A stretch of 64,000 bases of DNA, from contig JBBELK010000313.1 in the NCBI GenBank assembly GCA_037783545.1, forward strand, positions 1 through 64,000. Reading direction: 5' to 3'. The stretch's first letter is position 1. Each line of letters opens with the position of its first letter. The notes under the pieces are model-generated. The model had not been told where the DNA came from. It did not search any database and saw only the letters and a program-made list of their open reading frames with translations. The translations under genes were made by a program, and so were the position numbers. The stretch is from Henricia sp. BOLD:AAB3569. Taxonomy: Eukaryota; Echinodermata; Asteroidea; Spinulosida; Echinasteridae. Below, one piece after another: positions 14,301 to 53,701 of this stretch.

Positions 14301-14439
14301 ATTGCCGAGCCAAACTGCGGTGCGTTAACGACAGTCCGAATGACTGAGCATGCGCACAACTCAGGAGTACCCCAAAGAGGTGTGTACAGACAGCCACGGT
14401 TTGCGTGAGAGCAGTCAGGAAGCCTCAACCCAGTTTTTT

Positions 14440-30541: not shown

Positions 30542-31377
30542 GTTTGGACCACACTTTGACCAAATTGCCGAGCCAAACTGCGGTGCGTTATCGACAGTCC
30601 GAATGACTGAGCATGCGCACAACTCAGGAGTACCCCAAAGAGGTGTGTACAGACAGCCACGGTTTGCGTGAGAGCAGTCAGGAAGCCTCAACCTAGTTTT
30701 TTCTAAACTTTGAAATTTCTCTGCCATTTCCCGGCGAAAGTCTGTCAATTTTTTATGACAAGTGCGCAATATAGAGAGTTTAGGGCATGCAAAATTTGAA
30801 GTTCGTCGGAACATTTTTCGACCTCCAAATTTGCCGACGTTTGGACCACACTTTGACCAAATTGCCGAGCCAAACTGCGGTGCGTTAACAACAGTCCGAA
30901 TGACTGAGCATGCGCACAACTCAGGAGTACCCCAAAGAGGTGTGTACAGACAGCCACGGTTTGCGTGAGAGCAGTCAGGAAGCCTCAACCCAGTTTTTTC
31001 TAAACTTTGAAATTTCTCTGCCATTTCCCGGCGAAAGTCTGTCAATTTTTTTTATGACAAGTGCGCAATATAGAGAGTTTAGGGCATGCAAAATTTGAAG
31101 TTCGTCGGAACATTTTTCGACCTCCAAATTTGCCGACGTTTGGACCACACTTTGACCAAATTGCCGAGCCAAACTGCGGTGCGTTAACGACAGTCCGAAT
31201 GACTGAGCATGCGCACAACTCAGGAGTACCCCAAAGAGGTGTGTACAGACAGCCACGGTTTGCGTGAGAGCAGTCAGGAAGCCTCAACCCAGTTTTTTCT
31301 AAACTTTGAAATTTCTCTGCCATTTCCCGGCGAAAGTCTGTCAATTTTTTATGTCAAGTGCGCAATATAGAGAGGAG

Positions 31378-31653
31378 TTGTTGTTGTTGTATATTTTATG
31401 GCATCTTCGGCAACTAAAGCCCTTTATGCCATCAACTATACGGTTTTAGCTAACTATACTATATTATCAACTTGAGATGACGAAGAAGGAGTTACAGTTT
31501 TAGAAGTGGGAGGAAAACCCCCAGAGAAATGCCCCAGGGGAAAACCCACGCGGTCAAGTAGGGACTGCAAACCCAATCCACATACACGCCCCAGATTCGA
31601 ACCCGGGACCCCAGAGGTGAAAGGCGAGGAAAGAACCCGTACGCCAACCCGAC
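31378..31653 (-). mobile_element. tRNA-derived SINE, copy 2
   Basis: Same truncated form as copy 1, with an extra GAG between the satellite GAGAG and the TTG tail (31375-31377). A G-to-A change at 31593 alters the last base of the B box on the minus strand (GGTTCGAATCT), so this copy would be expected to be a weaker pol III template. First SINE of the first 2220-bp composite unit. Confidence 0.87.
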
Positions 31654-32190
31654 GTTTGGACCACACTTTGACCAAATTGCCGAGCCAAACTGCGGTGCGT
31701 TAACGACAGTCCGAATGACTGAGCATGCGCACAACTCAGGAGTACCCCAAAGAGGTGTGTACAGACAGCCACGGTTTGCGTGAGAGCAGTCAGGAAGCCT
31801 CAACCCATTTTTTTCCAAACTTTACAATTTCTCTGCCATTTCCCGGCGAAAGTCTGTCAATTTTTTATGACAAGTGCGCAATATAGAGAGTTTTGGGCAT
31901 GCAAAATTTGAAGTTCGTCGGAACATTTTTCGACCTCCAAATTTGCCGACGTTTGGACCACACTTTGACCAAATTGCCGAGCCAAACTGCGGTGCGTTAA
32001 CGACAGTCCGAATGACTGAGCATGCGCACAACTCAGGAGTACCCCAAAGAGGTGTGTACAGACAGCCACGGTTTGCGTGAGAGCAGTCAGGAAGCCTCAA
32101 CCCAGTTTTTTCTAAACTTTGAAATTTCTCTGCCATTTCCCGGCGAAAGTCTGTCAATTTTTTATGTCAAGTGCGCAATATAGAGAGGAG

Positions 32191-32466
32191 TTGTTGTTGT
32201 TGTATATTTTATGGCATCTTCGGCAACTAAAGCCCTTTATGCCATCAACTATACGGTTTTAGCTAACTATACTATATTATCAACTTGAGATGACGAAGAA
32301 GGAGTTACAGTTTTAGAAGTGGGAGGAAAACCCCCAGAGAAATGCCCCAGGGGAAAACACACGCGGTCAAGTAGGGACTGCAAACCCAATCCACATACAC
32401 GCCCCGGATTCGAACCCGGGACCCCAGAGGTGAAATGCGAGGAAAGAACCCGTACGCCAACCCGAC
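32191..32466 (-). mobile_element. tRNA-derived SINE, copy 3
   Basis: Truncated form ending at CCGAC. Private changes are AAAACACACG for AAAACCCACG near 32357 and GTGAAATGCGAG for GTGAAAGGCGAG near 32436. The B box is intact at 32406-32416. Second SINE of the first composite unit. Confidence 0.87.
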
Positions 32467-33597
32467 GTTTGGACCACACTTTGACCAAATTGCCGAGCCA
32501 AACTGCGGTGCGTTAACGACAGTCCGAATGACTGAGCATGCGCACAACTCAGGAGTACCCCAAAGAGGTGTGTACAGACAGCCACGGTTTGCGTGAGAGC
32601 AGTCAGGAAGCCTCAACCCATTTTTTTCCAAACTTTGAAATTTCTCTGCCATTTCCAGGCGAAAGTCTGTCAATTTTTTATGACAAGTGCGCAATATAGA
32701 GAGTTTAGGGCATGCAAAATTTGAAGTTCGTCGGAACATTTTTCGACCTCCAAATTTGCCGACGTTTGGACCACACTTTGACCAAATTGCCGAGCCAAAC
32801 TGCGGTGCGTTAACGACAGTCCTAATGACTGAGCATGCGCACAACTCAGGAGTACCCCAAAGAGGTGTGTACAGACAGCCACGGTTTGCGTGAGAGCAGT
32901 CAGGAAGCCTTAACCCAGTTTTTTCTAAACTTAGACATTTCTCTGCCATTTCCCGGCGAAAGTCTGTCAATTTTTTATGACAAGTGCGCAATATAGAGAG
33001 TTTAGGGCATGCAAAATTTGAAGTTCGTCGGAACATTTTTCGACCTCCAAATTTGCCGACGTTTGGACCACACTTTGACCAAATTGCCGAGCCAAACTGC
33101 GGTGCGTTAACGACAGTCCGAATGACTGAGCATGCGCACAACTCAGGAGTACCCCAAAGAGGTGTGTACAGACAGCCACGGTTTGCGTGAGAGCAGTCAG
33201 GAAGCCTCAACCCAGTTTTTTCTAAACTTTGAAATTTCTCTGCCATTTCCCGGCGAAAGTCTGTCAATTTTTTATGACAAGTGCGCAATATAGAGAGTTT
33301 AGGGCATGCAAAATTTGAAGTTCGTCGGAACATTTTTCGACCTCCAAATTTGCCGACGTTTGGACCACACTTTGACCAAATTGCCGAGCCAAACTGCGGT
33401 GCGTTAACGACAGTCCGAATGACTGAGCATGCGCACAACTCAGGAGTATCCCAAAGAGGTGTGTACAGACAGCCACGGTTTGCGTGAGAGCAGTCAGGAA
33501 GCCTCAACCCAGTTTTTTCTAAACTTTGAAATTTCTCTGCCATTTCCCGGCGAAAGTCTGTCAATTTTTTATGTCAAGTGCGCAATATAGAGAGGAG

Positions 33598-33873
33598 TTG
33601 TTGTTGTTGTATATTTTATGGCATCTTCGGCAACTAAAGCCCTTTATGCCATCAACTATACGGTTTTAGCTAACTATACTATATTATCAACTTGAGATGA
33701 CGAAGAAGGAGTTACAGTTTTAGAAGTGGGAGGAAAACCCCCAGAGAAATGCCCCAGGGGAAAACCCACGCGGTCAAGTAGGGACTGCAAACCCAATCCA
33801 CATACACGCCCCGGATTCGAACCCGGGACCCCAGAGGTGAAAGGCGAGGAAAGAACCCGTACGCCAACCCGAC
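33598..33873 (-). mobile_element. tRNA-derived SINE, copy 4
   Basis: Matches the consensus of the truncated copies throughout. B box intact at 33813-33823. First SINE of the second 2220-bp composite unit. Confidence 0.87.
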
Positions 33874-34410
33874 GTTTGGACCACACTTTGACCAAATTGC
33901 CGAGCCAAACTGCGGTGCGTTAACGACAGTCCGAATGACTGAGCATGCGCACAACTCAGGAGTACCCCAAAGAGGTGTGTACAGACAGCCACGGTTTGCG
34001 TGAGAGCAGTCAGGAAGCCTCAACCCATTTTTTTCCAAACTTTACAATTTCTCTGCCATTTCCCGGCGAAAGTCTGTCAATTTTTTATGACAAGTGCGCA
34101 ATATAGAGAGTTTAGGGCATGCAAAATTTGAAGTTCGTCGGAACATTTTTCGACCTCCAAATTTGCCGACGTTTGGACCACACTTTGACCAAATTGCCGA
34201 GCCAAACTGCGGTGCGTTAACGACAGTCCGAATGACTGAGCATGCGCACAACTCAGGAGTACCCCAAAGAGGTGTGTACAGACAGCCACGGTTTGCGTGA
34301 GAGCAGTCAGGAAGCCTCAACCCAGTTTTTTCTAAACTTTGAAATTTCTCTGCCATTTCCCGGCGAAAGTCTGTCAATTTTTTATGTCAAGTGCGCAATA
34401 TAGAGAGGAG

Positions 34411-34686
34411 TTGTTGTTGTTGTATATTTTATGGCATCTTCGGCAACTAAAGCCCTTTATGCCATCAACTATACGGTTTTAGCTAACTATACTATATTAT
34501 CAACTTGAGATGACGAAGAAGGAGTTACAGTTTTAGAAGTGGGAGGAAAACCCCCAGAGAAATGCCCCAGGGGAAAACCCACGCGGTCAAGTAGGGACTG
34601 CAAACCCAATCCACATACACGCCCCGGATTCGAACCCGGGACCCCAGAGGTGAAAGGCGAGGAAAGAACCCGTACGCCAACCCGAC
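34411..34686 (-). mobile_element. tRNA-derived SINE, copy 5
   Basis: Consensus truncated form with intact B box at 34626-34636. Second SINE of the second composite unit, 813 bp from copy 4, as copy 3 is from copy 2. Confidence 0.87.
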
Positions 34687-35817
34687 GTTTGGACCACACT
34701 TTGACCAAATTGCCGAGCCAAACTGCGGTGCGTTAACGACAGTCCGAATGACTGAGCATGCGCACAACTCAGGAGTACCCCAAAGAGGTGTGTACAGACA
34801 GCCACGGTTTGCGTGAGAGCAGTCAGGAAGCCTCAACCCATTTTTTTCCAAACTTTGAAATTTCTCTGCCATTTCCCGGCGAAAGTCTGTCAATTTTTTA
34901 TGACAAGTGCGCAATATAGAGAGTTTAGGGCATGCACAATTTGAAGTTCGTCGGAACATTTTTCGACCTCCAAATTTGCCGACGTTTGGACCACACTTTG
35001 ACCAAATTGCCGAGCCAAACTGCGGTGCGTTAACGACAGTCCGAATGACTGAGCATGCGCACAACTCAGGAGTACCCCAAAGAGGTGTGTACAGACAGCC
35101 ACGGTTTGCGTGAGAGCAGTCAGGAAGCCTCAACCCAGTTTTTTCTAAACTTTGACATTTCTCTGCCATTTCCCCGCGAAAGTCTGTCAATTTTTTATGA
35201 CAAGTGCGCAATATAGAGAGTTTAGGGCATGCAAAATTTGAAGTTCGTCGGAACATTTTTCGACCTCCAAATTTGCCGACGTTTGGACCACACTTTGACC
35301 AAATTGCCGAGCCAAACTGCGGTGCGTTAACGACAGTCCGAATGACTGAGCATGCGCACAACTCAGGAGTACCCCAAAGAGGTGTGTACAGACAGCCACG
35401 GTTTGCGTGAGAGCAGTCAGGAAGCCTCAACCCAGTTTTTTCTAAACTTTGAAATTTCTCTGCCATTTCCCGGCGAAAGTCTGTCAATTTTTTATGACAA
35501 GTGCGCAATATAGAGAGTTTAGGGCATGCAAAATTTGAAGTTCGTCGGAACATTTTTCGACCTCCAAATTTGCCGACGTTTGGACCACACTTTGACCAAA
35601 TTGCCGAGCCAAACTGCGGTGCGTTAACGACAGTCCGAATGACTGAGCATGCGCACAACTCAGGAGTACCCCAAAGAGGTGTGTACAGACAGCCACGGTT
35701 TGCATGAGAGCAGTCAGGAAGCCTCAACCCAGTTTTTTCTAAACTTTGAAATTTCTCTGCCATTTCCCGGCGAAAGTCTGTCAATTTGTTATGTCAAGTG
35801 CGCAATATAGAGAGGAG

Positions 35818-36093
35818 TTGTTGTTGTTGTATATTTTATGGCATCTTCGGCAACTAAAGCCCTTTATGCCATCAACTATACGGTTTTAGCTAACTATACT
35901 ATATTATCAACTTGAGATGACGAAGAAGGAGTTACAGTTTTAGAAGTGGGAGGAAAACCCCCAGAGAAATGCCCCAGGGGAAAACCCACGCGGTCAAGTA
36001 GGGACTGCAAACCCAATCCACATACACGCCCCGGATTCGAACCCGGGACCCCAGAGGTGAAAGGCGAGGAAAGAACCCGTACGCCAACCCGAC
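35818..36093 (-). mobile_element. tRNA-derived SINE, copy 6
   Basis: Consensus truncated form with intact B box at 36033-36043. The flanking monomer on the left has a private CAATTTGTTATGTC change. First SINE of the third composite unit. Confidence 0.87.
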
Positions 36094-36630
36094 GTTTGGA
36101 CCACACTTTGACCAAATTGCCGAGCCAAACTGCGGTGCGTTAACGACAGTCCGAATGACTGAGCATGCGCACAACTCAGGAGTACCCCAAAGAGGTGTGT
36201 ACAGACAGCCACGGTTTGCGTGAGAGCAGTCAGGAAGCCTCAACCCATTTTTTTCCAAACTTTACAATTTCTCTGCCATTTCCCGGCGAAAGTCTGTCAA
36301 TTTTTTATGACAAGTGCGCAATATAGAGAGTTTAGGGCATGCAAAATTTGAAGTTCGTCGGAACATTTTTCGACCTCCAAATTTGCCGACGTTTGGACCA
36401 CACTTTGACCAAATTGCCGAGCCAATCTGCGGTGCGTTAACGACAGTCCGAATGACTGAGCATGCGCACAACTCAGGAGTACCCCAAAGAGGTGTGTACA
36501 GACAGCCACGGTTTGCGTGAGAGCAGTCAGGAAGCCTCAACCCAGTTTTTTCTAAACTTTGAAATTTCTCTGCCATTTCCCGGCGAAAGTCTGTCAATTG
36601 TTTATGTCAAGTGCGCAATATAGAGAGGAG

Positions 36631-36906
36631 TTGTTGTTGTTGTATATTTTATGGCATCTTCGGCAACTAAAGCCCTTTATGCCATCAACTATACGGTTTT
36701 AGCTAACTATACTATATTATCAACTTGAGATGACGAAGAAGGAGTTACAGTTTTAGAAGTGGGAGGAAAACCCCCAGAGAAATGCCCCAGGGGAAAACCC
36801 ACGCGGTCAAGTAGGGACTGCAAACCCAATCCACATACACGCCCCGGATTCGAACCCGGGACCCCAGAGGTGAAAAGCGAGGAAAGAACCCGTACGCCAA
36901 CCCGAC
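36631..36906 (-). mobile_element. tRNA-derived SINE, copy 7
   Basis: Truncated form with one private change, GTGAAAAGCGAG, near 36876. The left flank has CAATTGTTTATG. Second SINE of the third composite unit. The following gap is 298 bp longer than in the first two units, so one monomer was gained. Confidence 0.87.
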
Positions 36907-38335
36907 GTTTGGACCACACTTTGACCAAATTGCCGAGCCAAACTGCGGTGCGTTAACGACAGTCCGAATGACTGAGCATGCGCACAACTCAGGAGTACCC
37001 CAAAGAGGTGTGTACAGACAGCCACGGTTTGCGTGAGAGCAGTCAGGAAGCCTCAACCCATTTTTTTCCAAACTTTGAAATTTCTCTGCCATTTCCCGGC
37101 GAAAGTCTGTCAATTTTTTATGACAAGTGCGCAATATAGAGAGTTTAGGGCATGCAAAATTTGAAGTTCGTCGGAACATTTTTCGACCTCCAAATTTGCC
37201 GACGTTTGGACCACACTTTGACCAAATTGCCGAGCCAAACTGCGGTGCGTTAACGACAGTCCGAATGACTGAGCATGCGCACAACTCAGGAGTACCCCAA
37301 AGAGGTGTGTACAGACAGCCACGGTTTGCGTGAGAGCAGTCAGGAAGCCTCAACCCAGTTTTTTCTAAACTTTGACATTTCTCTGCCATTTCCCGGCGAA
37401 AGTCTGTCAATTTTTTTATGACAAGTGCGCAATATAGAGAGTTTAGGGCATGCAAAATTTGAAGTTCGTCGGAACATTTTTCGACCTCCAAATTTGCCGA
37501 CGTTTGGACCACACTTTGACCAAATTGCCGAGCCAAACTGCGGTGCGTTAACGACAGTCCGAATGACTGAGCATGCGCACAACTCAGGAGTACCCCAAAG
37601 AGGTGTGTACAGACAGCCACGGTTTGCGTGAGAGCAGTCAGGAAGCCTCAACCCAGTTTTTTCTAAACTTTGAAATTTCTCTGCCATTTCCCGGCGAAAG
37701 TCTGTCAATTTTTTATGACAAGTGCGCAATATAGAGAGTTTAGGGCATGCAAAATTTGAAGTTCGTCGGAACATTTTTCGACCTCCAAATTTGCCGACGT
37801 TTGGACCACACTTTGACCAAATTGCCGAGCCAAACTGCGGTGCGTTAACGACAGTCCGAATGACTGAGCATGCGCACAACTCAGGAGTACCCCAAAGAGG
37901 TGTGTACAGACAGCCACGGTTTGCGTGAGAGCAGTCAGGAAGCCTCAACCCAGTTTTTTCTAAACTTTGAAATTTCTCTGCCATTTCCCGGCGAAAGTCT
38001 GTCAATTTTTTATGACAAGTGCGCAATATAGAGAGTTTAGGGCATGCAAAATTTGAAGTTCGTCGGAACATTTTTCGACCTCCAAATTTGCCGACGTTTG
38101 GACCACACTTTGACCAAATTGCCGAGCCAAACTGCGGTGCGTTAACGACAGTCCGAATGACTGAGCATGCGCACAACTCAGGAGTACCCCAAAGAGGTGT
38201 GTACAGACAGCCACGGTTTGCGTGAGAGCAGTCAGGAAGCCTCAACCCAGTTTTTTCTAAACTTTGAAATTTCTCTGCCATTTCCCGGCGAAAGTCTGTC
38301 AATTTTTTATGTCAAGTGCGCAATATAGAGAGGAG

Positions 38336-38611
38336 TTGTTGTTGTTGTATATTTTATGGCATCTTCGGCAACTAAAGCCCTTTATGCCATCAACTATACG
38401 GTTTTAGCTAACTATACTATATTATCAACTTGAGATGACGAAGAAGGAGTTACAGTTTTAGAAGTGGGAGGAAAACCCCCAGAGAAATGCCCCAGGGGAA
38501 AACCCACGCGGTCAAGTAGGGACTGCAAACCCAATCCACATACACGCCCCGGATTCGAACCCGGGACCCCAGAGGTGAAAGGCGAGGAAAGAACCCGTAC
38601 GCCAACCCGAC
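38336..38611 (-). mobile_element. tRNA-derived SINE, copy 8
   Basis: Consensus truncated form with B box at 38551-38561. Only 28 bp of satellite (GTTTGG to ATTGCC) separate it from the foreign insert that begins at 38640. Confidence 0.87.
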
Positions 38612-38650
38612 GTTTGGACCACACTTTGACCAAATTGCCTTTTTCTAAAA

Positions 38651-38674
38651 TGTTTTATTCGTCCGAATAAAACA
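38651..38674. repeat. 24-bp palindrome (11-bp arms, 2-bp centre)
   Basis: TGTTTTATTCG and CGAATAAAACA are exact reverse complements separated by TC. The right arm contains AATAAA. It lies near the left edge of the foreign insert and recurs at 40425-40448 in the second copy. It could be a hairpin in a transcript or part of an element terminus; nothing decides between these. Confidence 0.85.
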
Positions 38675-38723
38675 CGCTAACCAGTCCAACGTTGTTACCG
38701 ATAGAACCAGTGCTTCAGCCGTT

Positions 38724-38996
38724 GTCGTTGCCAGTCCAGGTCATTTATCCACTAAGCGTTCGCCGTTATTGCCAAATTTCCTCATTCGTAGTCGTTGCCA
38801 GTCCAGGTCATTTATCCACTAAGCGTTCGCCGTTATTGCCAAATTTCCTCATTCGTAGTCGTTGCCAGTCCAGGTCATTTATCCACCAATTGTTCGCCGT
38901 TATTGCCAAATTTCCTCATTCGTTGTCGTTGCCAGTCCAGGTCATTTATCCACCAAATTTCCTCATTCGTTGTCGTTGCCAATCCAGGTCATTATC
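38724..38996. repeat. 67-bp minisatellite inside foreign insert A
   Basis: Three full units start with GTCGTTGCCAGTCCAGGTCA at 38724, 38791 and 38858. A fourth, at 38925, is shortened to 47 bp by loss of 20 bp in its middle. A fifth, at 38972, is partial and diverged. Units one and two are identical. Unit three differs in the middle (CCACCAATTG for CCACTAAGCG) and at its last base. Confidence 0.92.
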
Positions 38997-39308
38997 CGGC
39001 GAGTATTCTCCATCACAATCATCACCAATCGTGTCCGAGTATCAGGTCATATCCTTCGAGAAGCACCACAGGTACATCCTCATAAAACCACAATCGTCAC
39101 CAGTCCAGGTCTGGAAGAATCAAGACCGCAGACTCGGATCCAATCGTGTTCCAAAATTGTATCGGCGTTCCCCGTGACGTACGTACTGGTCACTCCGTCA
39201 TTGAGCAACGTTCCAGGACATCACGGGATTCCGCGAAAAACTCCTCCAAACTACCTATGTGCAAGGGTAGTCCTTTGGAAAGAACCCGTACGCCAACCCG
39301 ACCGCCCC

Positions 39309-40109
39309 AAACTGCGGTGCGTTAACGACAGTCCGAATGACTGAGCATGCGCACAACTCAGGAGTACCCCAAAGAGGTGTGTACAGACAGCCACGGTTTG
39401 CGTGAGAGCAGTCAGGAAGCCTCAACCCATTTTTTTCCAAACTTTACAATTTCTCTGCCATTTCCCGGCGAAAGTCTGTCAATTTTTTATGACAAGTGCG
39501 CAATATAGAGAGTTTAGGGCATGCAAAATTTGAAGTTCGTCGGAACATTTTTCGACCTCCAAATTTGCCGACGTTTGGACCACACTTTGACCAAATTGCC
39601 GAGCCAAACTGCGGTGCGTTAACGACAGTCCGAATGACTGAGCATGCGCACAACTCAGGAGTACCCCAAAGAGGTGTGTACAGACAGCCACGGTTTGCGT
39701 GAGAGCAGTCAGGAAGCCTCAACCCAGTTTTTTCTAAACTTTGAAATTTCTCTGCCATTTCCCGGCGAAAGTCTGTCAATTTTTTATGACAAGTGCGCAA
39801 TATAGAGAGTTTAGGGCATGCAAAATTTGAAGTTCGTCGGAACATTTTTCGACCTCCAAATTTGCCGACGTTTGGACCACACTTTGACCAAATTGCCGAG
39901 CCAAACTGCGGTGCGTTAACGACAGTCCGAATGACTGAGCATGCGCACAACTCAGGAGTACCCCAAAGAGGTGTGTACAGACAGCCACGGTTTGCGTGAG
40001 AGCAGTCAGGAAGCCTCAACCCAGTTTTTTCTAAACTTTGAAATTTCTCTGCCATTTCCCGGCGAAAGTCTGTCAATTTTTTATGTCAAGTGCGCAATAT
40101 AGAGAGGAG
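39309..40109. repeat. satellite segment after insert A
   Basis: A partial monomer starting at AAACTGCGG and carrying CCATTTTTTTCCAAAC/TTTACAATT, followed by two full 297-bp monomers and the stub leading into SINE copy 9. The segment after insert B has one monomer fewer, which explains the different spacing of SINE copies 9 and 10. Confidence 0.9.
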
Positions 40110-40385
40110 TTGTTGTTGTTGTATATTTTATGGCATCTTCGGCAACTAAAGCCCTTTATGCCATCAACTATACGGTTTTAGCTAACTATACTATATTATC
40201 AACTTGAGATGACGAAGAAGGAGTTACAGTTTTAGAAGTGGGAGGAAAACCCCCAGAGAAATGCCCCAGGGGAAAACCCACGCGGTCAAGTAGGGACTGC
40301 AAACCCAATCCACATACACGCCCCGGATTCGAACCCGGGACCCCAGAGGTGAAAGGCGAGGAAAGAACCCGTACGCCAACCCGAC
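40110..40385 (-). mobile_element. tRNA-derived SINE, copy 9
   Basis: Consensus truncated form with B box at 40325-40335. It lies 1774 bp from copy 8 in an otherwise matching context, so it is the second half of a tandem duplication that includes the foreign insert. Confidence 0.87.
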
Positions 40386-40413
40386 GTTTGGACCACACTT
40401 TGACCAAATTGCC

Positions 40414-41082
40414 TTTTTCTAAAATGTTTTATTCGTCCGAATAAAACACGCTAACCAGTCCAACGTTGTTACCGATAGAACCAGTGCTTCAGCCGTTGTC
40501 GTTGCCAGTCCAGGTCATTTATCCACTAAGCGTTCGCCGTTATTGCCAAATTTCCTCATTCGTAGTCGTTGCCAGTCCAGGTCATTTATCCACTAAGCGT
40601 TCGCCGTTATTGCCAAATTTCCTCATTCGTAGTCGTTGCCAGTCCAGGTCATTTATCCACCAATTGTTCGCCGTTATTGCCAAATTTCCTCATTCGTTGT
40701 CGTTGCCAGTCCAGGTCATTTATCCACCAAATTTCCTCATTCGTTGTCGTTGCCAATCCAGGTCATTATCCGGCGAGTATTCTCCATCACAATCATCACC
40801 AATCGTGTCCGAGTATCAGGTCATATCCTTCGAGAAGCACCACAGGTACATCCTCATAAAACCACAATCGTCACCAGTCCAGGTCTGGAAGAATCAAGAC
40901 CGCAGACTCGGATCCAATCGTGTTCCAAAATTGTATCGGCGTTCCCCGTGACGTACGTACTGGTCACTCCATCATTGAGCAACGTTCCAGGACATCACGG
41001 GATTCCGCGAAAAACTCCTCCAAACTACCTATGTGCAAGGGTAGTCCTTTGGAAAGAACCCGTACGCCAACCCGACCGCCCC
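40414..41082 (-). mobile_element. 669-bp foreign insert ending in a SINE head, copy B
   Basis: Same length, junctions and internal order as the insert at 38640. The only difference I found is A at 40971 where copy A has G at 39197. The 32-nt SINE head is at 41051-41082. Such near-identity shows a very recent segmental duplication, not two insertions. Confidence 0.65.
40498..40770. repeat. 67-bp minisatellite inside foreign insert B
   Basis: The same units as in copy A, shifted by 1774 bp, including the same 20-bp loss in the fourth unit. Repeat number has not changed since the duplication. Confidence 0.92.
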
Positions 41083-41586
41083 AAACTGCGGTGCGTTAAC
41101 GACAGTCCGAATGACTGAGCATGCGCACAACTCAGGAGTACCCCAAAGAGGTGTGTACAGACAGCCACGGTTTGCGTGAGAGCAGTCAGGAAGCCTCAAC
41201 CCATTTTTTTCCAAACTTTACAATTTCTCTGCCATTTCCCGGCGAAAGTCTGTCAATTTTTTATGACAAGTGCGCAATATAGAGAGTTTAGGGCATGCAA
41301 AATTTGAAGTTCGTCGGAACATTTTTCGACCTCCAAATTTGCCGACGTTTGGACCACACTTTGACCAAATTGCCGAGCCAAACTGCGGTGCGTTAACGAC
41401 AGTCCGAATGACTGAGCATGCGCACAACTCAGGAGTACCCCAAAGAGGTGTGTACAGACAGCCACGGTTTGCGTGAGAGCAGTCAGGAAGCCTCAACCCA
41501 GTTTTTTCTAAACTTTGAAATTTCTCTGCCATTTCCCGGCGAAAGTCTGTCAATTTTTTATGTCAAGTGCGCAATATAGAGAGGAG

Positions 41587-41862
41587 TTGTTGTTGTTGTA
41601 TATTTTATGGCATCTTCGGCAACTAAAGCCCTTTATGCCATCAACTATACGGTTTTAGCTAACTATACTATATTATCAACTTGAGATGACGAAGAAGGAG
41701 TTACAGTTTTAGAAGTGGGAGGAAAACCCCCAGAGAAATGCCCCAGGGGAAAACCCACGCGGTCAAGTAGGGACTGCAAACCCAATCCACATACACGCCC
41801 CGGATTCGAACCCGGGACCCCAGAGGTGAAAGGCGAGGAAAGAACCCGTACGCCAACCCGAC
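41587..41862 (-). mobile_element. tRNA-derived SINE, copy 10
   Basis: Consensus truncated form with B box at 41802-41812, extra GAG before the tail and ATGTCAAG in the left flank. The monomer to its right is of the ordinary type (CCCAGTTTTTTCTAAAC), unlike those beside copies 2-7, which marks the right edge of the amplified composite. Confidence 0.87.
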
Positions 41863-42086
41863 GTTTGGACCACACTTTGACCAAATTGCCGAGCCAAACT
41901 GCGATGCGTTAACGACAGTCCGAATGACTGAGCATGCGCACAACTCAGGAGTACCCCAAAGAGGTGTGTACAGACAGCCACGGTTTGCGTGAGAGCAGTC
42001 AGGAAGCCTCAACCCAGTTTTTTCTAAACTTTGAAATTTCTCTGCCATTTCCCGGCGAAAGTCTGTCAATTTTTTATGACAAGTGC

Positions 42087-42099
42087 GCAATATAGAGAG
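42087..42099. repeat. target-site duplication of SINE copy 11, left
   Basis: GCAATATAGAGAG, identical to 42385-42397. It can be extended by TT into the TTG tail, so the true length is 13 to 15 bp, typical for LINE-driven retroposition. The sequence is the normal end of a satellite monomer. Confidence 0.9.
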
Positions 42100-42122
42100 T
42101 TGTTGTTGTTGTTGTATATTTT

Positions 42123-42157
42123 ATGGCATCTTCGGCAACTAAGGCCCTTTATGCCAT
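42123..42157 (-). other. 3'-terminal hairpin of the SINE
   Basis: ATGGCAT (42123-42129) and ATGCCAT (42151-42157) pair perfectly, with a possible inner GGC/GCC pairing. It is placed just before the repeat tail, where some SINEs share a stem-loop with their partner LINE. Recognition by a LINE reverse transcriptase is inference. The arms are retained in all eleven copies. Confidence 0.6.
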
Positions 42158-42317
42158 CAACTATACGGTTTTAGCTAACTATACTATATTATCAACTTGA
42201 GATGACGAAGAAGGAGTTACAGTTTTAGAAGTGGGAGGAAAACCCCCAGAGAAATGCCCCAGGGGAAAACCCACGCGGTCAAGTAGGGACTGCAAACCCA
42301 ATCCACATACACGCCCC

Positions 42318-42371
42318 GGATTCGAACCCGGGACCCCAGAGGTGAAAGGCGAGGAAAGAACCCGTACGCCA
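42318..42371 (-). promoter_or_regulatory. internal pol III promoter of SINE copy 11 (A and B boxes)
   Basis: On the minus strand, TGGCGTACGGG (42371 down to 42361) fits the general A-box pattern TRGYNNANNNG, and GGTTCGAATCC (42328 down to 42318) is a perfect B box GGTTCGANNCC. The 32-nt spacing between them is within the usual range for tRNA genes and SINEs. Whether it is active cannot be told from sequence. Confidence 0.75.
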
Positions 42372-42384
42372 ACCCGACCGCCCC

Positions 42385-42397
42385 GCAATATAGAGAG
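42385..42397. repeat. target-site duplication of SINE copy 11, right
   Basis: The second GCAATATAGAGAG, directly after the CCCC that ends the SINE head and directly before TTTAGGGCATGC of the resumed monomer. It is absent to the right of copies 1-10. Confidence 0.9.
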
Positions 42398-42660
42398 TTT
42401 AGGGCATGCAAAATTTGAAGTTCGTCGGAACATTTTTCGACCTCCAAATTTGCCGACGTTTGGACCACACTTTGACCAAATTGCCGAGCCAAACTGCGGT
42501 GCGTTAACGACAGTCCGAATGACTGAGCATGCGCACAACTCAGGAGTACCCCAAAGAGGTGTGTACAGACAGCCACGGTTTGCGTGAGAGAAGTCAGGAA
42601 GCCTCAACCCAGTTTTTTCTAAACTTTGAAATTTCTCTGCCATTTCCCGGCGAAAGTCTG

Positions 42661-43850
42661 TCAATTTTTTATGACAAGTGCGCAATATAGAGAGTTTAGG
42701 GCATGCAAAATTTGAAGTTCGTCGGAACATTTTTCGACCTCCAAATTTGCCGACGTTTGGACCACACTTTGACCAAATTGTCGAGCCAAACTGCGGTGCG
42801 TTAACGACAGTCCGAATGACTGAGCATGCGCACAACTCAGGAGTACCCCAAAGAGGTGTGTACAGACAGCCACGGTTTGCGTGAGAGCAGTCAGGAAGCC
42901 TCAACCCAGTTTTTTCTAAACTTTTGAAATTTCTCTGCCGTTTCCCGGCGAAAGTCTGTCAATTTTTTATGACAAGTGCGCAATATAGAGAGTTTAGGGC
43001 ATGCAAAATTTGAAGTTCGTCGGAAAATTTTTCGACCTCCAAATTTGCCGACGTTTGGACCACACTTTGACCAAATTGCCGAGCAAAAATTCGGTGCGTT
43101 AACGACAGTCCGAATGACTGAGCATGCGCACAACTCAGGAGTACCCCAAAGAGGTGTGTACAGACAGCCACGGTTTGCGTGAGAGCAGTCAGGAAGCCTC
43201 AACCCAGTTTTTTCTAAACTTTGAAATTTCTCTGCCATTTCCCGGCGAAAGTCTGTCAATTTTTTATGACAAGTGCGCAATATAGAGAGTTTAGGGCATG
43301 CAAAATTTGAAGTTCGTCGGAACATTTTTCGACCTCCAAATTTGCCGACGTTTGGACCACACTTTGACCAAATTGTCGAGCCAAACTGCGGTGCGTTAAC
43401 GACAGTCCGAATGACTGAGCATGCGCACAACTCAGGAGTACCCCAAAGAGGTGTGTACAGACAGCCACGGTTTGCGTGAGAGCAGTCAGGAAGCCTCAAC
43501 CCAGTTTTTTCTAAACTTTTGAAATTTCTCTGCCGTTTCCCGGCGAAAGTCTGTCAATTTTTTATGACAAGTGCGCAATATAGAGAGTTTAGGGCATGCA
43601 AAATTTGAAGTTCGTCGGAAAATTTTTCGACCTCCAAATTTGCCGACGTTTGGACCACACTTTGACCAAATTGCCGAGCAAAAATTCGGTGCGTTAACGA
43701 CAGTCCGAATGACTGAGCATGCGCACAACTCAGGAGTACCCCAGAGAGGTGTGTACGGACAGCCACGGTTTGCGTGAGAGCAGTCAGGAAGACTCAACCC
43801 AGTTTTTTCTAAACTTTGAAATTTCTCTGCCATTTCCCGGCGAAAGTCTG
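42661..43850. repeat. two-monomer higher-order repeat, 595 bp, two units
   Basis: AATTGTCGAGCC (42781 and 43376), CTTTTGAAATTT with CTGCCGTTTCC, CGGAAAATTTTT and GAGCAAAAATTCGG all recur at 595 bp. The second unit has private changes at its end (CCCAGAGAGG, GTACGGACAG, AAGACTCAACC). Confidence 0.88.
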
Positions 43851-45039
43851 TCAATTTTTTAATACAAGTGCGCAATATAGAGAGTTTAGGGCATGCAAAA
43901 TTTGAAGTTCGTCGGAACATTTTTCGACCTCCAAATTTGCCGACGTTTGGACCACACTTTGACCAAATTGCCGAGCCAAACTGCGGTGCGTTAACGACAG
44001 TCCGAATGACTGAGCATGCGAACAACTCAGGAGTACCCCAAAGAGGTGTGTACAGACAGCCACGGTTTGCGTGAGAGCAGTCAGGAAGCCTCAACCCAGT
44101 TTTTTCTAAACTTTGAAATTTCTCTGCCATTTCCCGGCGAAAGTCTGTCAATTTTTTTATGACAAGTGCGCAATATAGAGAGTTTAGGGCATGCAAAATT
44201 TGAAGTTCGTCGGAACATTTTTCGACCTCCAAATTTGCCGACGTTTGGACCACACTTTGACCAAATTGCCGAGCCAAACTGCGGTGCGTTAACGACAGTC
44301 CGAATGACTGAGCATGCGCTCAACTCAGGAGTACCCCAAAGAGGTGTGTACAGACAGCCACGGTTTGCGTGAGAGCAGTCAGGAAGCCTCAACCCAGTTT
44401 TTTCTAAACTTTGAAATTTCTCTGCCATTTCCCGGCGAAAGTCTGTCAATTTTTTATGACAAGTGCGCAATATAGAGAGTTTAGGGCATGCAAAATTTGA
44501 AGTTCGTCGGAACATTTTTCGACCTCCAAATTTGCCGACGTTTGGACCACACTTTGACCAAATTGCCGAGCCAAACTGCGGTGCGTTAACGACAGTCCGA
44601 ATGACTGAGCATGCGAACAACTCAGTAGTACCCCAAAGAGGTGTGTACAGACAGCCACGGTTTGCGTGAGAGCAGTCAGGAAGCCTCAACCCAGTTTTTT
44701 CTAAACTTTGAAATTTCTCTGCCATTTCCCGGCGAAAGTCTGTCAATTTTTTAATACAAGTGCGCAATATAGAGAGTTTAGGGCATGCAAAATTTGAAGT
44801 TCGTCGGAACATTTTTCGACCTCCAAATTTGCCGACGTTTGGACCACACTTTGACCAAATTGCCGAGCCAAACTGCGGTGCGTTAACGACAGTCCGAATG
44901 ACTGAGCATGCGAACAACTCAGGAGTACCCCAAAGAGGTGTGTACAGACAGCCACGGTTTGCGTGAGAGCAGTCAGGAAGCCTCAACCCAGTTTTTTCTA
45001 AACTTTGAAATTTCTCTGCCATTTCCCGGCGAAAGTCTG

Positions 45040-47416
45040 TCAATTTTTTAATACAAGTGCGCAATATAGAGAGTTTAGGGCATGCAAAATTTGAAGTTCG
45101 TCGGAACATTTTTCGACCTCCAAATTTGCCGACGTTTGGACCACACTTTGACCAAATTGCCGAGCCAAACTGCGGTGCGTTAACGACAGTCCGAATGACT
45201 GAGCATGCGCACAACTCAGGAGTACCCCAAAGAGGTGTGTACAGACAGCCACGGTTTGCGTGAGAGCAGTCAGGAAGCCTCAACCCAGTTTTTTCTAAAC
45301 TTTGAAATTTCTCTGCCATTTCCCGGCGAAAGTCTGTCAATTTTTTATGACAAGTGCTCAATATAGAGAGTTTAGGGCATGCAAAATTTGAAGTTCGTCG
45401 GAACATTTTTCGACCTCCAAATTTGCCGACGTTTGGACCACACTTTGACCAAATTGCCGAGCCAAACTGCGGTGCGTTAACGACAGTCCGAATGACTGAG
45501 CATGCGCACAACTCAGGAGTACCCCAAAGAGGTGTGTACAGACAGCCACGGTTTGCGTGAGAGCAGTCAGGAAGCCTCAACCCAGTTTTTTCTAAACTTT
45601 GAAATTTCTCTGCCATTTCCCGGCGAAAGTCTGTCAATTTTTTATGACAAGTGCGCAATATAGAGAGTTTAGGGCATGCAAAATTTGAAGTTCGTCGGAA
45701 CATTTTTCGACCTCCAAATTTGCCGACGTTTGGACCACACTTTGACCAAATTGCCGAGCCAAACTGCGGTGCGTTAACGACAGTCCGAATGACTGAGCAT
45801 GCGCACAACTCAGGAGTACCCCAAAGAGGTGTGTACAGACAGCCACGGTTTGCGTGAGAGCAGTCAGGAAGCCTCAACCCAGTTTTTTCTAAACTTTGAA
45901 ATTTCTCTGCCATTTCCCGGCGAAAGTCTGTCAATTTTTTATGACAAGTGCGCAATATAGAGAGTTTAGGGCATGCAAAATTTGAAGTTCGTCGGAACAT
46001 TTTTCGACCTCCAAATTTGCCGACGTTTGGACCACACTTTGACCAAATTGCCGAGCCAAACTGCGGTGCGTTAACGACAGTCCGAATGACTGAGCATGCG
46101 CACAACTCAGGAGTACCCCAAAGAGGTGTGTACAGACAGCCACGGTTTGCGTGAGCGCAGTCAGGAAGCCTCAACCCAGTTTTTTTCTAAACTTTGAAAT
46201 TTCTCTGCCATTTCCCGGCGAAAGTCTGTCAATTTTTTATGACAAGTGCGCAATATAGAGAGTTTAGGGCATGCAAAATTTGAAGTTCGTCGGAACATTT
46301 TTCGACCTCCAAATTTGCCGACGTTTGGACCACACTTTGACCAAATTGCCGAGCCAAACTGCGGTGCGTTAACGACAGTCCGAATGACTGAGCATGCGCA
46401 CAACTCAGGAGTACCCCAAAGAGGTGTGTACAGACAGCCACGGTTTGCGTGAGAGCAGTCAGGAAGCCTCAACCCAGTTTTTTCTAAACTTTGAAATTTC
46501 TCTGCCATTTCCCGGCGAAAGTCTGTCAATTTTTTATGACAAGTGCTCAATATAGAGAGTTTAGGGCATGCAAAATTTGAAGTTCGTCGGAACATTTTTC
46601 GACCTCCAAATTTGCCGACGTTTGGACCACACTTTGACCAAATTGCCGAGCCAAACTGCGGTGCGTTAACGACAGTCCGAATGACTGAGCATGCGCACAA
46701 CTCAGGAGTACCCCAAAGAGGTGTGTACAGACAGCCACGGTTTGCGTGAGAGCAGTCAGGAAGCCTCAACCCAGTTTTTTCTAAACTTTGAAATTTCTCT
46801 GCCATTTCCCGGCGAAAGTCTGTCAATTTTTTATGACAAGTGCGCAATATAGAGAGTTTAGGGCATGCAAAATTTGAAGTTCGTCGGAACATTTTTCGAC
46901 CTCCAAATTTGCCGACGTTTGGACCACACTTTGACCAAATTGCCGAGCCAAACTGCGGTGCGTTAACGACAGTCCGAATGACTGAGCATGCGCACAACTC
47001 AGGAGTACCCCAAAGAGGTGTGTACAGACAGCCACGGTTTGCGTGAGAGCAGTCAGGAAGCCTCAACCCAGTTTTTTCTAAACTTTGAAATTTCTCTGCC
47101 ATTTCCCGGCGAAAGTCTGTCAATTTTTTATGACAAGTGCGCAATATAGAGAGTTTAGGGCATGCAAAATTTGAAGTTCGTCGGAACATTTTTCGACCTC
47201 CAAATTTGCCGACGTTTGGACCACACTTTGACCAAATTGCCGAGCCAAACTGCGGTGCGTTAACGACAGTCCGAATGACTGAGCATGCGCACAACTCAGG
47301 AGTACCCCAAAGAGGTGTGTACAGACAGCCACGGTTTGCGTGAGCGCAGTCAGGAAGCCTCAACCCAGTTTTTTCTAAACTTTGAAATTTCTCTGCCATT
47401 TCCCGGCGAAAGTCTG
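45040..47416. repeat. four-monomer higher-order repeat, 1188/1189 bp, two units plus part of a third
   Basis: GTGCTCAATA occurs at about 45354, 46543 and 47731, and GTGAGCGCAG at 46151 and 47340. Otherwise the monomers are nearly consensus. The extra base of the first unit comes from a longer T-run near 46181. Confidence 0.85.
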
Positions 47417-50095
47417 TCAATTTTTTATGACAAGTGCGCAATATAGAGAGTTTAGGGCATGCAAAATTTGAAGTTCGTCGGAACATTTTTCGACCTCCAA
47501 ATTTGCCGACGTTTGGACCACACTTTGACCAAATTGCCGAGCCAAACTGCGGTGCGTTAACGACAGTCCGAATGACTGAGCATGCGCACAACTCAGGAGT
47601 ACCCCAAAGAGGTGTGTACAGACAGCCACGGTTTGCGTGAGAGCAGTCAGGAAGCCTCAACCCAGTTTTTTCTAAACTTTGAAATTTCTCTGCCATTTCC
47701 CGGCGAAAGTCTGTCAATTTTTTATGACAAGTGCTCAATATAGAGAGTTTAGGGCATGCAAAATTTGAAGTTCGTCGGAACATTTTTCGACCTCCAAATT
47801 TGCCGACGTTTGGACCACACTTTGACCAAATTGCCGAGCCAAACTGCGGTGCGTTAACGACAGTCCGAATGACTGAGCATGCGAACAACTCAGGAGTACC
47901 CCAAAGAGGTGTGTACAGACAGCCACGGTTTGCGTGAGAGCAGTCAGGAAGCCTCAACCCAGTTTTTTCTAAACTTTGAAATTTCTCTGCCATTTCCCGG
48001 CGAAAGTCTGTCAATTTTTTTATGACAAGTGCGCAATATAGAGAGTTTAGGGCATGCACAATTTGAAGTTCGTCGGAACATTTTTCGACCTCCAAATTTG
48101 CCGACGTTTGGACCACACTTTGACCAAATTGCCGAGCCAAACTGCGGTGCGTTAACGACAGTCCGAATGACTGAGCATGCGCACAACTCAGGAGTACCCC
48201 AAAGAGGTGTGTACAGACAGCCACGGTTTGCGTGAGAGCAGTCAGGAAGCCTCAACCCAGTTTTTTCTAAACTTTGAAATTTCTCTGCCATTTCCCGGCG
48301 AAAGTCTGTCAATTTTTTATGACAAGTGCGCAATATAGAGAGTTTAGGGCATGCAAAATTTGAAGTTCGTCGGAACATTTTTCGACCTCCAAATTTGCCG
48401 ACGTTTGGACCACACTTTGACCAAATTGCCGAGCCAAACTGCGGTGCGTTAACGACAGTCCGAATGACTGAGCATGCGAACAACTCAGGAGTACCCCAAA
48501 GAGGTGTGTACAGACAGCCACGGTTTGCGTGAGAGCAGTCAGGAAGCCTCAACCCATTTTTTTCTAAACTTTGAAATTTCTCTGCCATTTCCCGGCGAAA
48601 GTCTGTCAATTTTTTTATGACAAGTGCGCAATATAGAGAGTTTAGGGCATGCAAAATTTGAAGTTCGTCGGAACATTTTTCGACCTCCAAATTTGCCGAC
48701 GTTTGGACCACACTTTGACCAAATTGCCGAGCCAAACTGCGGTGCGTTAACGACAGTCCGAATGACTGAGCATGCGCACAACTCAGGAGTACCCCAAAGA
48801 GGTGTGTACAGACAGCCACGGTTTGCGTGAGAGCAGTCAGAGAGCCTGAACCCAGTTTTTTTTCTAAACTTTGAAATTTCTCTGCCATTTCCCGGCGAAA
48901 GTCTGTCAATTTGTTATGACAAGTGCGCAATATAGAGAGTTTAGGGCATGCAAAATTTGAAGTTCGTCGGAACATTTTTCGACCTCCAAATTTGCCGACG
49001 TTTGGACCACACTTTGACCAAATTGCCGAGCCAAACTGCGGTGCGTTAACGACAGTCCGAATGACTGAGCATGCGCACAACTCAGGAGTACCCCAAAGAG
49101 CTGTGTACAGACAGCCACGGTTTGCGTGAGAGCAGTCAGGAAGCCTCAACCCAGTTTTTTCTAAACTTTGAAATTTCTCTGCCATTTCCCGGCGAAAGTC
49201 TGTCAATTTTTTTTATGACAAGTGCGCAATATAGAGAGTTTAGGGCATGCAAAATTTGAAGTTCGTCGGAACATTTTTCGACCTCCAAATTTGCCGACGT
49301 TTGGACCACACTTTGACCAAATTGCCGAGCCAAACTGCGGTGCGTTAACGACAGTCCGAATGACTGAGCATGCGCACAACTCAGGAGTACCCCAAAGAGG
49401 TGTGTACAGACAGCCACGGTTTGCGTGAGAGCAGTCAGGAAGCCTCAACCCATTTTTTTCTAAACTTTGAAATTTCTCTGCCATTTCCCGGCGAAAGTCT
49501 GTCAATTTTTTATGACAATTGCGCAATATAAAGAGTTTAGGGCATGCAAAATTTGAAGTTCGTCGGAACATTTTTCGACCTCCAAATTTGCCGACGTTTG
49601 GACCACACTTTGACCAAATTGCCGAGCCAAACTGCGGTGCGTTAACGACAGTCCGAATGACTGAGCATGCGCACAACTCAGGAGTACCCCAAAGAGGTGT
49701 GTACAGACAGCCACGGTTTGCGTGAGAGCAGTCAGGAAGCCTCAACCCAGTTTTTTCTAAACTTTGAAATTTCTCTGCCATTTCCCGGCGAAAGTCTGTC
49801 AATTTTTTATGACAAGTGCGCAATATAGAGAGTTTAGGGCATGCAACATTTGAAGTTCGTCGGAACATTTTTCGACCTCCAAATTTGCCGACGTTTGGAC
49901 CACACTTTGACCAAATTGCCGAGCCAAACTGCGGTGCGTTAACGACAGTCCGAATGACTGAGCATGCGCACAACTCAGGAGTACCCCAAAGAGGTGTGTA
50001 CAGACAGCCACGGTTTGCGTGAGAGCAGTCAGGAAGCCTCAACCCAGTTTTTTCTAAACTTTGAAATTTCTCTGCCATTTCCCGGCGAAAGTCTG

Positions 50096-51287
50096 TCAAT
50101 TTTTTATGACAAGTGCGCAATATAGAGAGTTTAGGGCATGCATAATTTGAAGTTCGTCGGAACATTTTTCGACCTCCAAATTTGCCGACGTTTGGACCAC
50201 ACTTTGACCAAATTGCCGAGCCAAACTGCGGTGCGTTAACGACAGTCCGAATGACTGAGCATGCGCACAACTCAGGAGTACCCCAAAGAGGTGTGTACAG
50301 ACAGTCACGGTTTGCGTGAGAGCAGTCAGGAAGCCTCAACCCAGTTTTTTCTAAACTTTGAAATTTCTCTGCCATTTCCCGGCGAAAGTCTGTCAATTTT
50401 TTTATGACAAGTGCGCAATATAGAGAGTTTAGGGCATGCAAAATTTGAAGTTCGTCGGAACATTTTTCGACCTCCAAATTTGCCGACGTTTGGACCACAC
50501 TTTGACCAAATTGCCGAGCCAAACTGCGGTGCGTTAACGACAGTCCGAATGACTGAGCATGCGCACAACTCAGGAGTACCCCAAAGAGGTGTGTACAGAC
50601 AGCCACGGTTTGCGTGAGAGCAGTCAGGAAGCCTCAACCCAGTTTTTTCTAAACTTTGAAATTTCTCTGCCATTTCCCGGCGAAAGTCTGTCAATTTTTT
50701 ATGACAAGTGCGCAATATAGAGAGTTTAGGGCATGCATAATTTGAAGTTCGTCGGAACATTTTTCGACTTCCAAATTTGCCGACGTTTGGACCACACTTT
50801 GACCAAATTGCCGAGCCAAACTGCGGTGCGTTAACGACAGTCCGAATGACTGAGCATGCGCACAACTCAGGAGTACCCCAAAGAGGTGTGTACAGACAGT
50901 CACGGTTTGCGTGAGAGCAGTCAGGAAGCCTCAACCCAGTTTTTTCTAAACTTTGAAATTTCTCTGCCATTTCCCGGCGAAAGTCTGTCAATTTTTTATG
51001 ACAAGTGCGCAATATAGAGAGTTTAGGGCATGCAAAATTTGAAGTTCGTCGGAACATTTTTCGACCTCCAAATTTGCCGACGTTTGGACCACACTTTGAC
51101 CAAATTGCCGAGCCAAACTGCGGTGCGTTAACGACAGTCCGAATGACTGAGCATGCGCACAACTCAGGAGTACCCCAAAGAGGTGTGTACAGACAGCCAC
51201 GGTTTGCGTGAGAGCAGTCAGGAAGCCTCAACCCAGTTTTTTCTAAACTTTGAAATTTCTCTGCCATTTCCCGGCGAAAGTCTGTCA
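50096..51287. repeat. two-monomer repeat, 595 bp, marked by GCATAATTT and CAGTCACGG
   Basis: Two monomers with both markers start 595 bp apart (50096 and 50691), with ordinary monomers between. Single monomers with the same markers lie near 52195 and 55153, so the variant was dispersed in the array by later exchanges. Confidence 0.65.
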
Positions 51288-53701
51288 ATTTTTTTATGAC
51301 AAGTGCGCAATATAGAGAGTTTAGGGCATGCAAAATTTGAAGTTCGTCGGAACATTTTTCGACCTCCAAATTTGCCGACGTTTGGACCACACTTTGACCA
51401 AATTGCCGAGCCAAACTGCGGTGCGTTAACGACAGTCCGAATGACTGAGCATGCGCACAACTCAGGAGTACCCCAAAGAGGTGTGTACAGACAGCCACGG
51501 TTTGCGTGAGAGCAGTCAGGAAGCCTCAACCCAGTTTTTTCTAAACTTTGAAATTTCTCTGCCATTTCCCGGCGAAAGTCTGTCAATTTTTTTTATGACA
51601 AGTGCGCAATATAGAGAGTTTAGGGCATGCACAATTTGAAGTTCGTCGGAACATTTTTCGACCTCCAAATTTGCCGACGTTTGGACCACACTTTGACCAA
51701 ATTGCCGAGCCAAACTGCGGTGCGTTAACGACAGTCCGAATGACTGAGCATGCGCACAACTCAGGAGTACCCCAAAGAGGTGTGTACAGACAGCCACGGT
51801 TTGCGTGAGAGCAGTCAGGAAGCCTCAACCCAGTTTTTTCTAAACTTTGAAATTTCTCTGCCATTTCCCGGCGAAAGTCTGTCAATTTTTTATGACAAGT
51901 GCGCAATATAGAGAGTTTAGGGCATGCAAAATTTGAAGTTCGTCGGAACATTTTTCGACCTCCAAATTTGCCGACGTTTGGACCACACTTTGACCAAATT
52001 GCCGAGCCAAACTGCGGTGCGTTAACGACAGTCCGAATGACTGAGCATGCGCACAACTCAGGAGTACCCCAAAGAGGTGTGTACAGACAGCCACGGTTTG
52101 CGTGAGAGCAGTCAGGAAGCCTCAACCCATTTTTTTCTAAACTTTGAAATTTCTCTGCCATTTCCCGGCGAAAGTCTGTCAATTTTTTTATGACAAGTGC
52201 GCAATATAGAGAGTTTAGGGCATGCATAATTTGAAGTTCGTCGGAACATTTTTCGACCTCCAAATTTGCCGACGTTTGGACCACACTTTGACCAAATTGC
52301 CGAGCCAAACTGCGGTGCGTTTACGACAGTCCGAATGACTGAGCATGCGCACAACTCAGGAGTACCCCAAAGAGGTGTGTACAGACAGTCACGGTTTGCG
52401 TGAGAGCAGTCAGGAAGCCTCAACCCAGTTTTTTCTAAACTTTGAAATTTCTCTGCCATTTCCCGGCGAAAGTCTGTCAATTTTTTTATGACAAGTGCAC
52501 AATATAGAGAGTTTAGGGCATGCAAAATTTGAAGTTCGTCGGAACATTTTTCGACCTCCAAATTTGCCGACGTTTGGACCACACTTTGACCAAATTGCCG
52601 AGCCAAACTGCGGTGCGTTAACGACAGTCCGAATGACTGAGCATGCGCACAACTCAGGAGTACCCCAAAGAGGTGTGTACAGACAGCCACGGTTTGCGTG
52701 AGAGCAGTCAGGAAGCCTCAACCCAGTTTGTTCTAAACTTTGAAATTTCTCTGCCATTTCCCGGCGATATTCTGTCAATTTTTTTATGACAAGTGCGCAA
52801 TATAGAGAGTTTAGGGCATGCAAAATTTGAAGTTCGTCGGAACATTTTTCGACCTCCAAATTTGCCGACGTTTGGACCACACTTTGACCAAATTGCCGAG
52901 CCAAACTGCGGTGCGTTAACGACAGTCCGAATGACTGAGCATGCGCACAACTCAGGAGTACCCCAAAGAGGTGTGTACAGACAGCCACGGTTTGCGTGAG
53001 AGCAGTCAGGAAGCCTCAACCCAGTTTTTTCTAAACTTTGAAATTTCTCTGCCATTTCCCGGCGAAAGTCTGTCAATTTTTTTATGACAAGTGCGCAATA
53101 TAGAGAGTTTAGGGCATGCAAAATTTGAAGTTCGTCGGAACATTTTTCGACCTCCAAATTTGCCGACGTTTGGACCACACTTTGACCAAATTGCCGAGCC
53201 AAACTGCGGTGCGTTAACGACAGTCCGAATGACTGAGCATGCGCACAACTCAGGAGTACCCCAAAGAGGTGTGTACAGACAGCCACGGTTTGCGTGAGAG
53301 CAGTCAGGAAGCCTCAACCCAGTTTTTTCTAAACTTTGAAATTTCTCTGCCATTTCCCGGCGAAAGTCTGTCAATTTTTTATGACAAGTGCGCAATATAG
53401 AGAGTTTAGGGCATGCAAAATTTGAAGTTCGTCGGAACATTTTTCGACCTCCAAATTTGCCGACGTTTGGACCACACTTTGACCAAATTGCCGAGCCAAA
53501 CTGCGGTGCGTTAACGACAGTCCGAATGACTGAGCATGCGCACAACTCAGGAGTACCCCAAAGAGGTGTGTACAGACAGCCACGGTTTGCGTGAGAGCAG
53601 TCAGGAAGCCTCAACCCAGTTTTTTCTAAACTTTGAAATTTCTCTGCCATTTCCCGGCGAAAGTCTGTCAATTTTTTATGACAAGTGCGCAATATAGAGA
53701 G

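Follow-up and report, generated by a model that had tools for sequence, protein, structure and literature searches.

The array analysed here carries eleven copies of a putative tRNA-derived SINE in a 297-bp satellite. The history that explains them best, and that we consider highly probable, is one insertion, one deletion in a descendant and the spread of both forms by satellite turnover, together with independent insertions at the same nucleotide elsewhere in the satellite. The only full-length copy in the window (the whole stretch of 64,000 bp that was analysed, positions 1 to 64,000 of contig C313 of Henricia sp.) is copy 11. This copy appears to be one surviving copy of the ancestral form and is not identifiably the founding locus. 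Thus, the founder and offspring seemingly caught side by side in the window would be a sample from a family that is spread over many arrays.

The whole window consists of the satellite, apart from the inserts listed in Table 1, and adjacent monomers in it show a median of 3 differences. The search covered the 740.7-Mb assembly (2,104 contigs), from which 296,124 bases only were fetched for comparison. The exact 35-bp empty site was found in at least 139,118 copies (71,711 plus 67,407), so that, at 297 bp each, they account for at least 5.6% (41 Mb) of the assembly. In the window, 161 empty sites with the flank ATGAC were matched.

Table 1. Features of the window (positions 1 to 64,000 of contig C313)
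Feature	Position	Strand	Remark
297-bp satellite array	1..64000	.	fills the window apart from the inserts below
Copy 1, truncated form	30263..30541	-	279 of 285 bp; junction CCGAC/GTTTGG
Copy 2, truncated form	31375..31653	-	tail begins GAG
Copy 3, truncated form	32188..32466	-	
Copy 4, truncated form	33595..33873	-	
Copy 5, truncated form	34408..34686	-	
Copy 6, truncated form	35815..36093	-	
Copy 7, truncated form	36628..36906	-	
Copy 8, truncated form	38333..38611	-	followed by chimeric insert
Chimeric insert downstream of copy 8	38640..39308		
Copy 9, truncated form	40107..40385	-	followed by chimeric insert
Chimeric insert downstream of copy 9	40414..41082		
Copy 10, truncated form	41584..41862	-	no empty monomer before the monomer of copy 11
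Target-site duplication, left copy	42087..42099	+	GCAATATAGAGAG
Copy 11, full-length SINE	42100..42384	-	285 bp
Target-site duplication, right copy	42385..42397	+	GCAATATAGAGAG

Copy 11 has its 3' (CAA)n tail at 42100 and its 5' end, GGGGCGG, at 42384, and an A/B-box-like pair spans 42318-42371. The original prediction had placed a complete element between two copies of a 13-15 bp duplication, and both its coordinates and the duplication, of 13 bp, were borne out; the duplication reaches 16 letters if those shared with the tail and with the SINE end are counted. Excision of copy 11 and one duplication also gave back a normal 297-bp monomer, as had been claimed, which is 2 positions off the next monomer. 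Compared with 170 window monomers, the rejoined monomer was at a minimum of 1 edit and a median of 2.5 edits. At body column 28, copy 11 has G, as is the state of the family, and its flank, ATGAC, is that of the window's matched empty sites. That copy 11 alone keeps a complete 5' end is true of the window, where the last 6 bp of this end were retained in 1 of 11 copies, but not of the genome, where its 13-bp right junction was matched 19 times in 13 contigs. Backwards control patterns for the junction searches gave 0 matches, so chance is excluded.

The element would be a tRNA-derived SINE, judging by its boxes at tRNA-like spacing, its duplications, its tail and its dispersed copies. Members of this class have an A/B-box-like pair, a short simple-repeat tail, target-site duplications and thousands of copies, and the window SINE matches all of these. 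The A and B boxes (TGGCGTACGGG, 32 nt, then GGTTCGAATCC) were present in 10 of the 11 window copies and in 0 shuffles; the pair resembles the consensus of the RNA polymerase III promoter boxes. ARAGORN did not detect a tRNA, an Rfam search of the element gave a chance bacterial match only (E 0.11), and neither Rfam nor the MetaSINE work yielded a family name. The 3' end is a short-repeat tail, (CAA)n, and the 5' end has 2,517 exact 21-mer copies genome-wide, satellite copies included. The fetched SINE copies occupy several unrelated loci with differing duplications. Duplications of 11-18 letters flank 20 of 21 selected copies, with L103_240 giving none, and an A/T-then-G step closes 19 of the 20 measured duplications, which are not all independent, once the letters shared with the tail (T, TT or TTG) are trimmed. 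A site-specific retroelement of the R2/TRAS type, whose insertion is confined to one target sequence, was ruled out because the copies are found at unrelated loci, where their duplications differ, and at more than one position of the satellite. Tandem SINE copies with a short duplication between them were seen at four loci (L074, L101, L102 and L103), and SINEs inserted into another SINE at two (L068 and L077). In these tandem and nested arrangements, the nick site was possibly reused outside the satellite too.

The ten truncated window copies all terminate at CCGAC/GTTTGG. Compared to copy 11 they lack 79 bp, which comprise 60 bp of satellite, the whole of the second duplication and the outermost 6 bp at the 5' end of the SINE, and CCGAC is found at both end points of this deletion. 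With up to 2 mismatches permitted, the truncated junction was found in 29 copies genome-wide. All 29 have 28G>A in the SINE body, the flank ATGTC and the same deletion, and the flank reads ATGTCAAGTG in 28 of them and ATGTCAAGTT in one. In the tree, these 29 copies fall on one side of a branch (support 96/90) that appeared in 97% of 200 bootstrap trees, in a bootstrap that had not settled; the midpoint root is set by copies 8 and 9, whose right flanks hold the chimeric insert. Since copy 11 keeps G28 and ATGAC, and every truncated copy shares the A, ATGTC, one deletion and one side of the branch, the full-length form is ancestral and the truncated form a derived lineage.

The two forms in the window could also be two separate insertions, the truncated copies descending from a SINE that arrived 5'-truncated and deleted part of its target. 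LINE-driven insertion is known to produce both kinds of loss, but both forms have in common a TT deletion, 110G>A and the position of the tail junction. The 32-mer with the TT deletion had 44 exact matches, 43 at this satellite site and 1 at the only other place in the genome, C228:199040-199326 (L008, L067), where the body is identical to copy 11 and the duplication is GAGGCCGAGTG. We consider two insertions extremely improbable, and the shared characters support the earlier claim that the eleven copies in the window all go back to a single SINE insertion. A left junction common to ten copies, claimed at the same time, holds in position and not letter for letter, because the first TTG of the tail reads GAG in copies 2-10 and copy 1 has another tail change. 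Eight of the 10 intervals between window copies are made up of complete monomers, although two of these eight include 1-2 additional bases; the remaining 2 follow copies 8 and 9, the bearers of the chimeric insert. The steps in copy spacing are 297n + 516 bp.

Next, copies of the window lineage were compared across the assembly. For the one-mismatch junction search, the best 100 of 111 matches were used. Rows that duplicate other loci were dropped (L001-L008, which duplicate later loci, and L071, which duplicates L048), as were 17 partial SINE hits and 8 loci with a one-mismatch junction match and no SINE hit (L052, L054, L055, L057, L058, L060, L061 and L063). The window haplotype, TT deletion plus 110G>A, was carried by 15 of the 19 full-length 13-bp junctions, in 10 contigs (one copy each in C313, C530, C792, C897, C969 and C1138, two each in C623, C1252 and C1438, and three in C1585). 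The truncated copies are distributed over C313 (10), C530 (6), C623 (3) and, with 2 each, C331, C661, C897, C969 and C1574. Together, the 15 full-length and 29 truncated copies compared make up a window lineage of 44 satellite copies over 13 contigs.

The original prediction that copy 11 is the founding insertion, with the ten neighbouring truncated copies as its local tandem derivatives, did not survive this comparison. Copy 11 does keep the ancestral structure and states, and it adjoins copy 10 directly. Both forms are present in five contigs, and in three of these (C313, C897 and C969) the row ends with the full-length copy among the matches listed. In the tree, copy 11 does not fall within copies 2-10, a placement that had been named in advance as contrary to a founder. 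Against a founder stands the number of full-length copies, 15 over 10 contigs, of which 7, including copy 11, have an identical SINE body. Full-length copies also lie among truncated ones: among the matches listed, the one in C530 separates two truncated copies from four more, and the order in C623 is truncated, full, truncated, truncated, full. Further, some of the window's truncated copies cluster with copies from other contigs: copy 1 pairs with one from C1574 (97/89), and copies 2, 4 and 6 join one from C969 (95/91); the branching of the other truncated window copies is not resolved, and copy 11 sits in a knot of full-length copies without resolved branching. A literal founder is contradicted by the assembly as it stands and is very unlikely, and it is these observations that suggest a sampled, ancestral-form copy in its place.

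The position at which copy 11 is inserted, site A, is filled in other satellite subfamilies as well. There are 81 full-length right junctions at site A, in forms that include GCAATATAG, CAATATAG, AATATAG and TCAATATAG. The near-full copies at this site number 120, including the 11 of the window; among the 109 others, 85 have both flanks and were compared to copy 11, and the 24 copies outside the window that lack a usable right flank were left out. Independence was assessed through a one-sided Fisher test on the differences from copy 11 in the flank and in the SINE, with p-values that are not independent, as the copies of one array are related. In the TAGG/TTTGGA background (14 copies), 2-5 SINE bases differed compared to 4.8-6.6% of the flank, and the test was significant for 14 of 14 (p 0.001-0.04). 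In the GAGTG background, all 6 copies were significant (p 3e-10 to 6e-7), with 1-5 SINE bases compared to 10.9-11.9% of the flank. None of the 8 copies in C1883, which has a mixed background, was significant (p 0.09-0.5). Among 57 window-type copies, one was significant, L027_2863 in C969 (p 0.01), which belongs to the lineage of copy 11 and has an identical SINE and 9 differences in 400 flank bases. The test raised 1 false alarm among 14 same-lineage controls, none of which exceeded 2.3% flank divergence.

Local flanks were compared in ten sources. In C1412, 23 empty sites have one form, which recurs on either side of all 5 filled sites; there, each copy of the duplication contains GAGTG. Filled sites also have the form of the empty ones in C1116 (1 filled), C1069 (5 filled, at two loci) and C1650 (1). 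At the C1883 locus, the 5 filled sites agree save one private change, and the single filled site in C766 has a private change on the right. Only the right side matched the search form in C1208 and only the left side in C278.

Because the flanks diverge while the SINE hardly differs, the simplest account of these sequences would be at least three insertions at the site A nucleotide, in the window, TAGG and GAGTG types. This would provide the second independent full-length insertion at the same position that was earlier named as contrary to a founder; it lies elsewhere in the satellite, outside the window. Within the window's own subfamily, the 12-bp, 11-bp and T-CAATATAG junctions and four copies that do not have the TT deletion are indistinguishable from later small changes of one insertion. 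Those four copies (two at L062, and L065 and L066), which have a 13-bp duplication, were considered as a second insertion and withdrawn, since the deletion could postdate the insertion if the C228 copy came from the satellite. They are therefore not decisive, and the claim of independence rests on the diverged subfamilies.

A single insertion carried to all subfamilies by gene conversion, with erosion of the junction giving the 13-, 12- and 11-bp variants, was weighed against repeated insertion. It would account for the tail-side position common to nearly all filled sites among the matches listed, and single-base deletions could convert one junction to another. L027_2863 also indicates that flanks can change faster than the SINE. 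However, conversion must be reconciled with SINEs 1-5 bases off copy 11 that lie in flanks diverged by 4.8-6.6% and 10.9-11.9%, and with subfamily variants that lie within the duplication or only 3 bp away from it and that agree with the empty sites of the same array, on either side where both are readable. Conversion tracts would need to stop at the SINE borders on both sides. We find this explanation unlikely and favor repeated insertion. A special hotspot at site A is not needed, as 77 of the 594 strand-positions of the monomer have the A/T-then-G step. With at least 139,118 empty copies and 2,517 exact SINE 5' ends, repeat hits are unsurprising.

The proposed history would begin with the entry of the tRNA-derived SINE into one 297-bp monomer by target-primed reverse transcription, presumably with LINE machinery, which would have left the 13-bp duplication. 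One descendant would then have lost 79 bp between the CCGAC ends, perhaps by microhomology-mediated repair or slippage. Ordinary satellite turnover, perhaps through unequal exchange or conversion, would then have amplified both forms in steps of 297n + 516 bp and carried them from array to array, and in other satellite subfamilies further SINE copies would have inserted at this nucleotide in separate events. The case is one of ordinary SINE-plus-satellite dynamics with unusually clear polarity, and the recurrent insertion at one nucleotide is its interesting remainder.

In a repeat that is poor in landmarks, every such insertion provides a polarised marker, and it traces the movement of monomers between arrays. 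Common descent is not proven by an insertion point that satellite copies share, and flanks and haplotype need to be checked; this caution applies to mobile-element tracing of any satellite or centromere history. In human alpha-satellite, one report states that mobile-element insertions are present in about 30% of arrays and that the insertions of the chromosome 2 array mostly fit duplications of the same element (PMC12350169). As here, many of the SINE and LINE insertions described in that report were duplicated with the array, and unique and duplicate insertions were told apart by flank alignment; in contrast to it, one lineage here has 44 copies in 13 contigs, several subfamilies are filled at the same nucleotide and the satellite is 297 bp. 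Mobile-element insertions in the higher-order arrays of the centromere cores of all human chromosomes are noted in a review (PMC6471113). Satellite repeats derived from transposable elements, as reviewed elsewhere (PMC9659126), are similar in that a mobile element joins a tandem repeat unit and is amplified, whereas here the SINE is a minor passenger, with 81 full-length junctions compared to at least 139,118 empty sites. Within a partial coverage of the literature, which makes this weak evidence, we found no report of a SINE with a satellite monomer or of independent same-site insertion in satellites.

Insertions at other satellite positions were also identified. A second and busier position, site B, upstream of ACTGAGCATGCGCA, has 241 full-length junctions, with at least 15 junction strings among the 100 matches listed. 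On the opposite strand near site A there are 20 junctions, spread over several satellite backgrounds, and TTTGAAG is the site of 14 of them; the insertions in this orientation were seen in C108, C385, C440, C748, C749, C932 and C1123 (TTTGAAG) and in C1166, C1356 and C1353. A third stretch has 2 plain insertions, 2 junctions of another form and 21 of a deletion form. In this second deletion form (C199, C278, C1076, C1095 and C1511), the full SINE 5' end is directly followed by TTTGCCGACG; 3 of its 21 copies were read (L009-L011). Some satellite positions are hit more than others, and the counts are inflated by amplification. The satellite could be a recurrent landing pad for a moderately choosy SINE machinery at site A, at site B and on the other strand, with the hits multiplied by array turnover, and satellite copies may themselves be SINE sources, with the C228 copy maybe an offspring. 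This broader reading is tentative, and we hold it to be somewhat less than an even chance.

Two hybrids, L043 and L048, have a left junction that belongs to site A and a right junction that belongs to the GAATGACTGAGCATG site, the outcome to be expected if SINEs at two positions of the satellite recombine. The inserts downstream of copies 8 and 9 consist of 637 bp of unrelated sequence with 67-bp internal repeats and end in 32 bp of the SINE 5' end, which looks like a template-switch chimera. Six relatives of this insert were read, in C30 (L093-L095) and C48 (L104, L105), and five of them have a 36-bp SINE piece.
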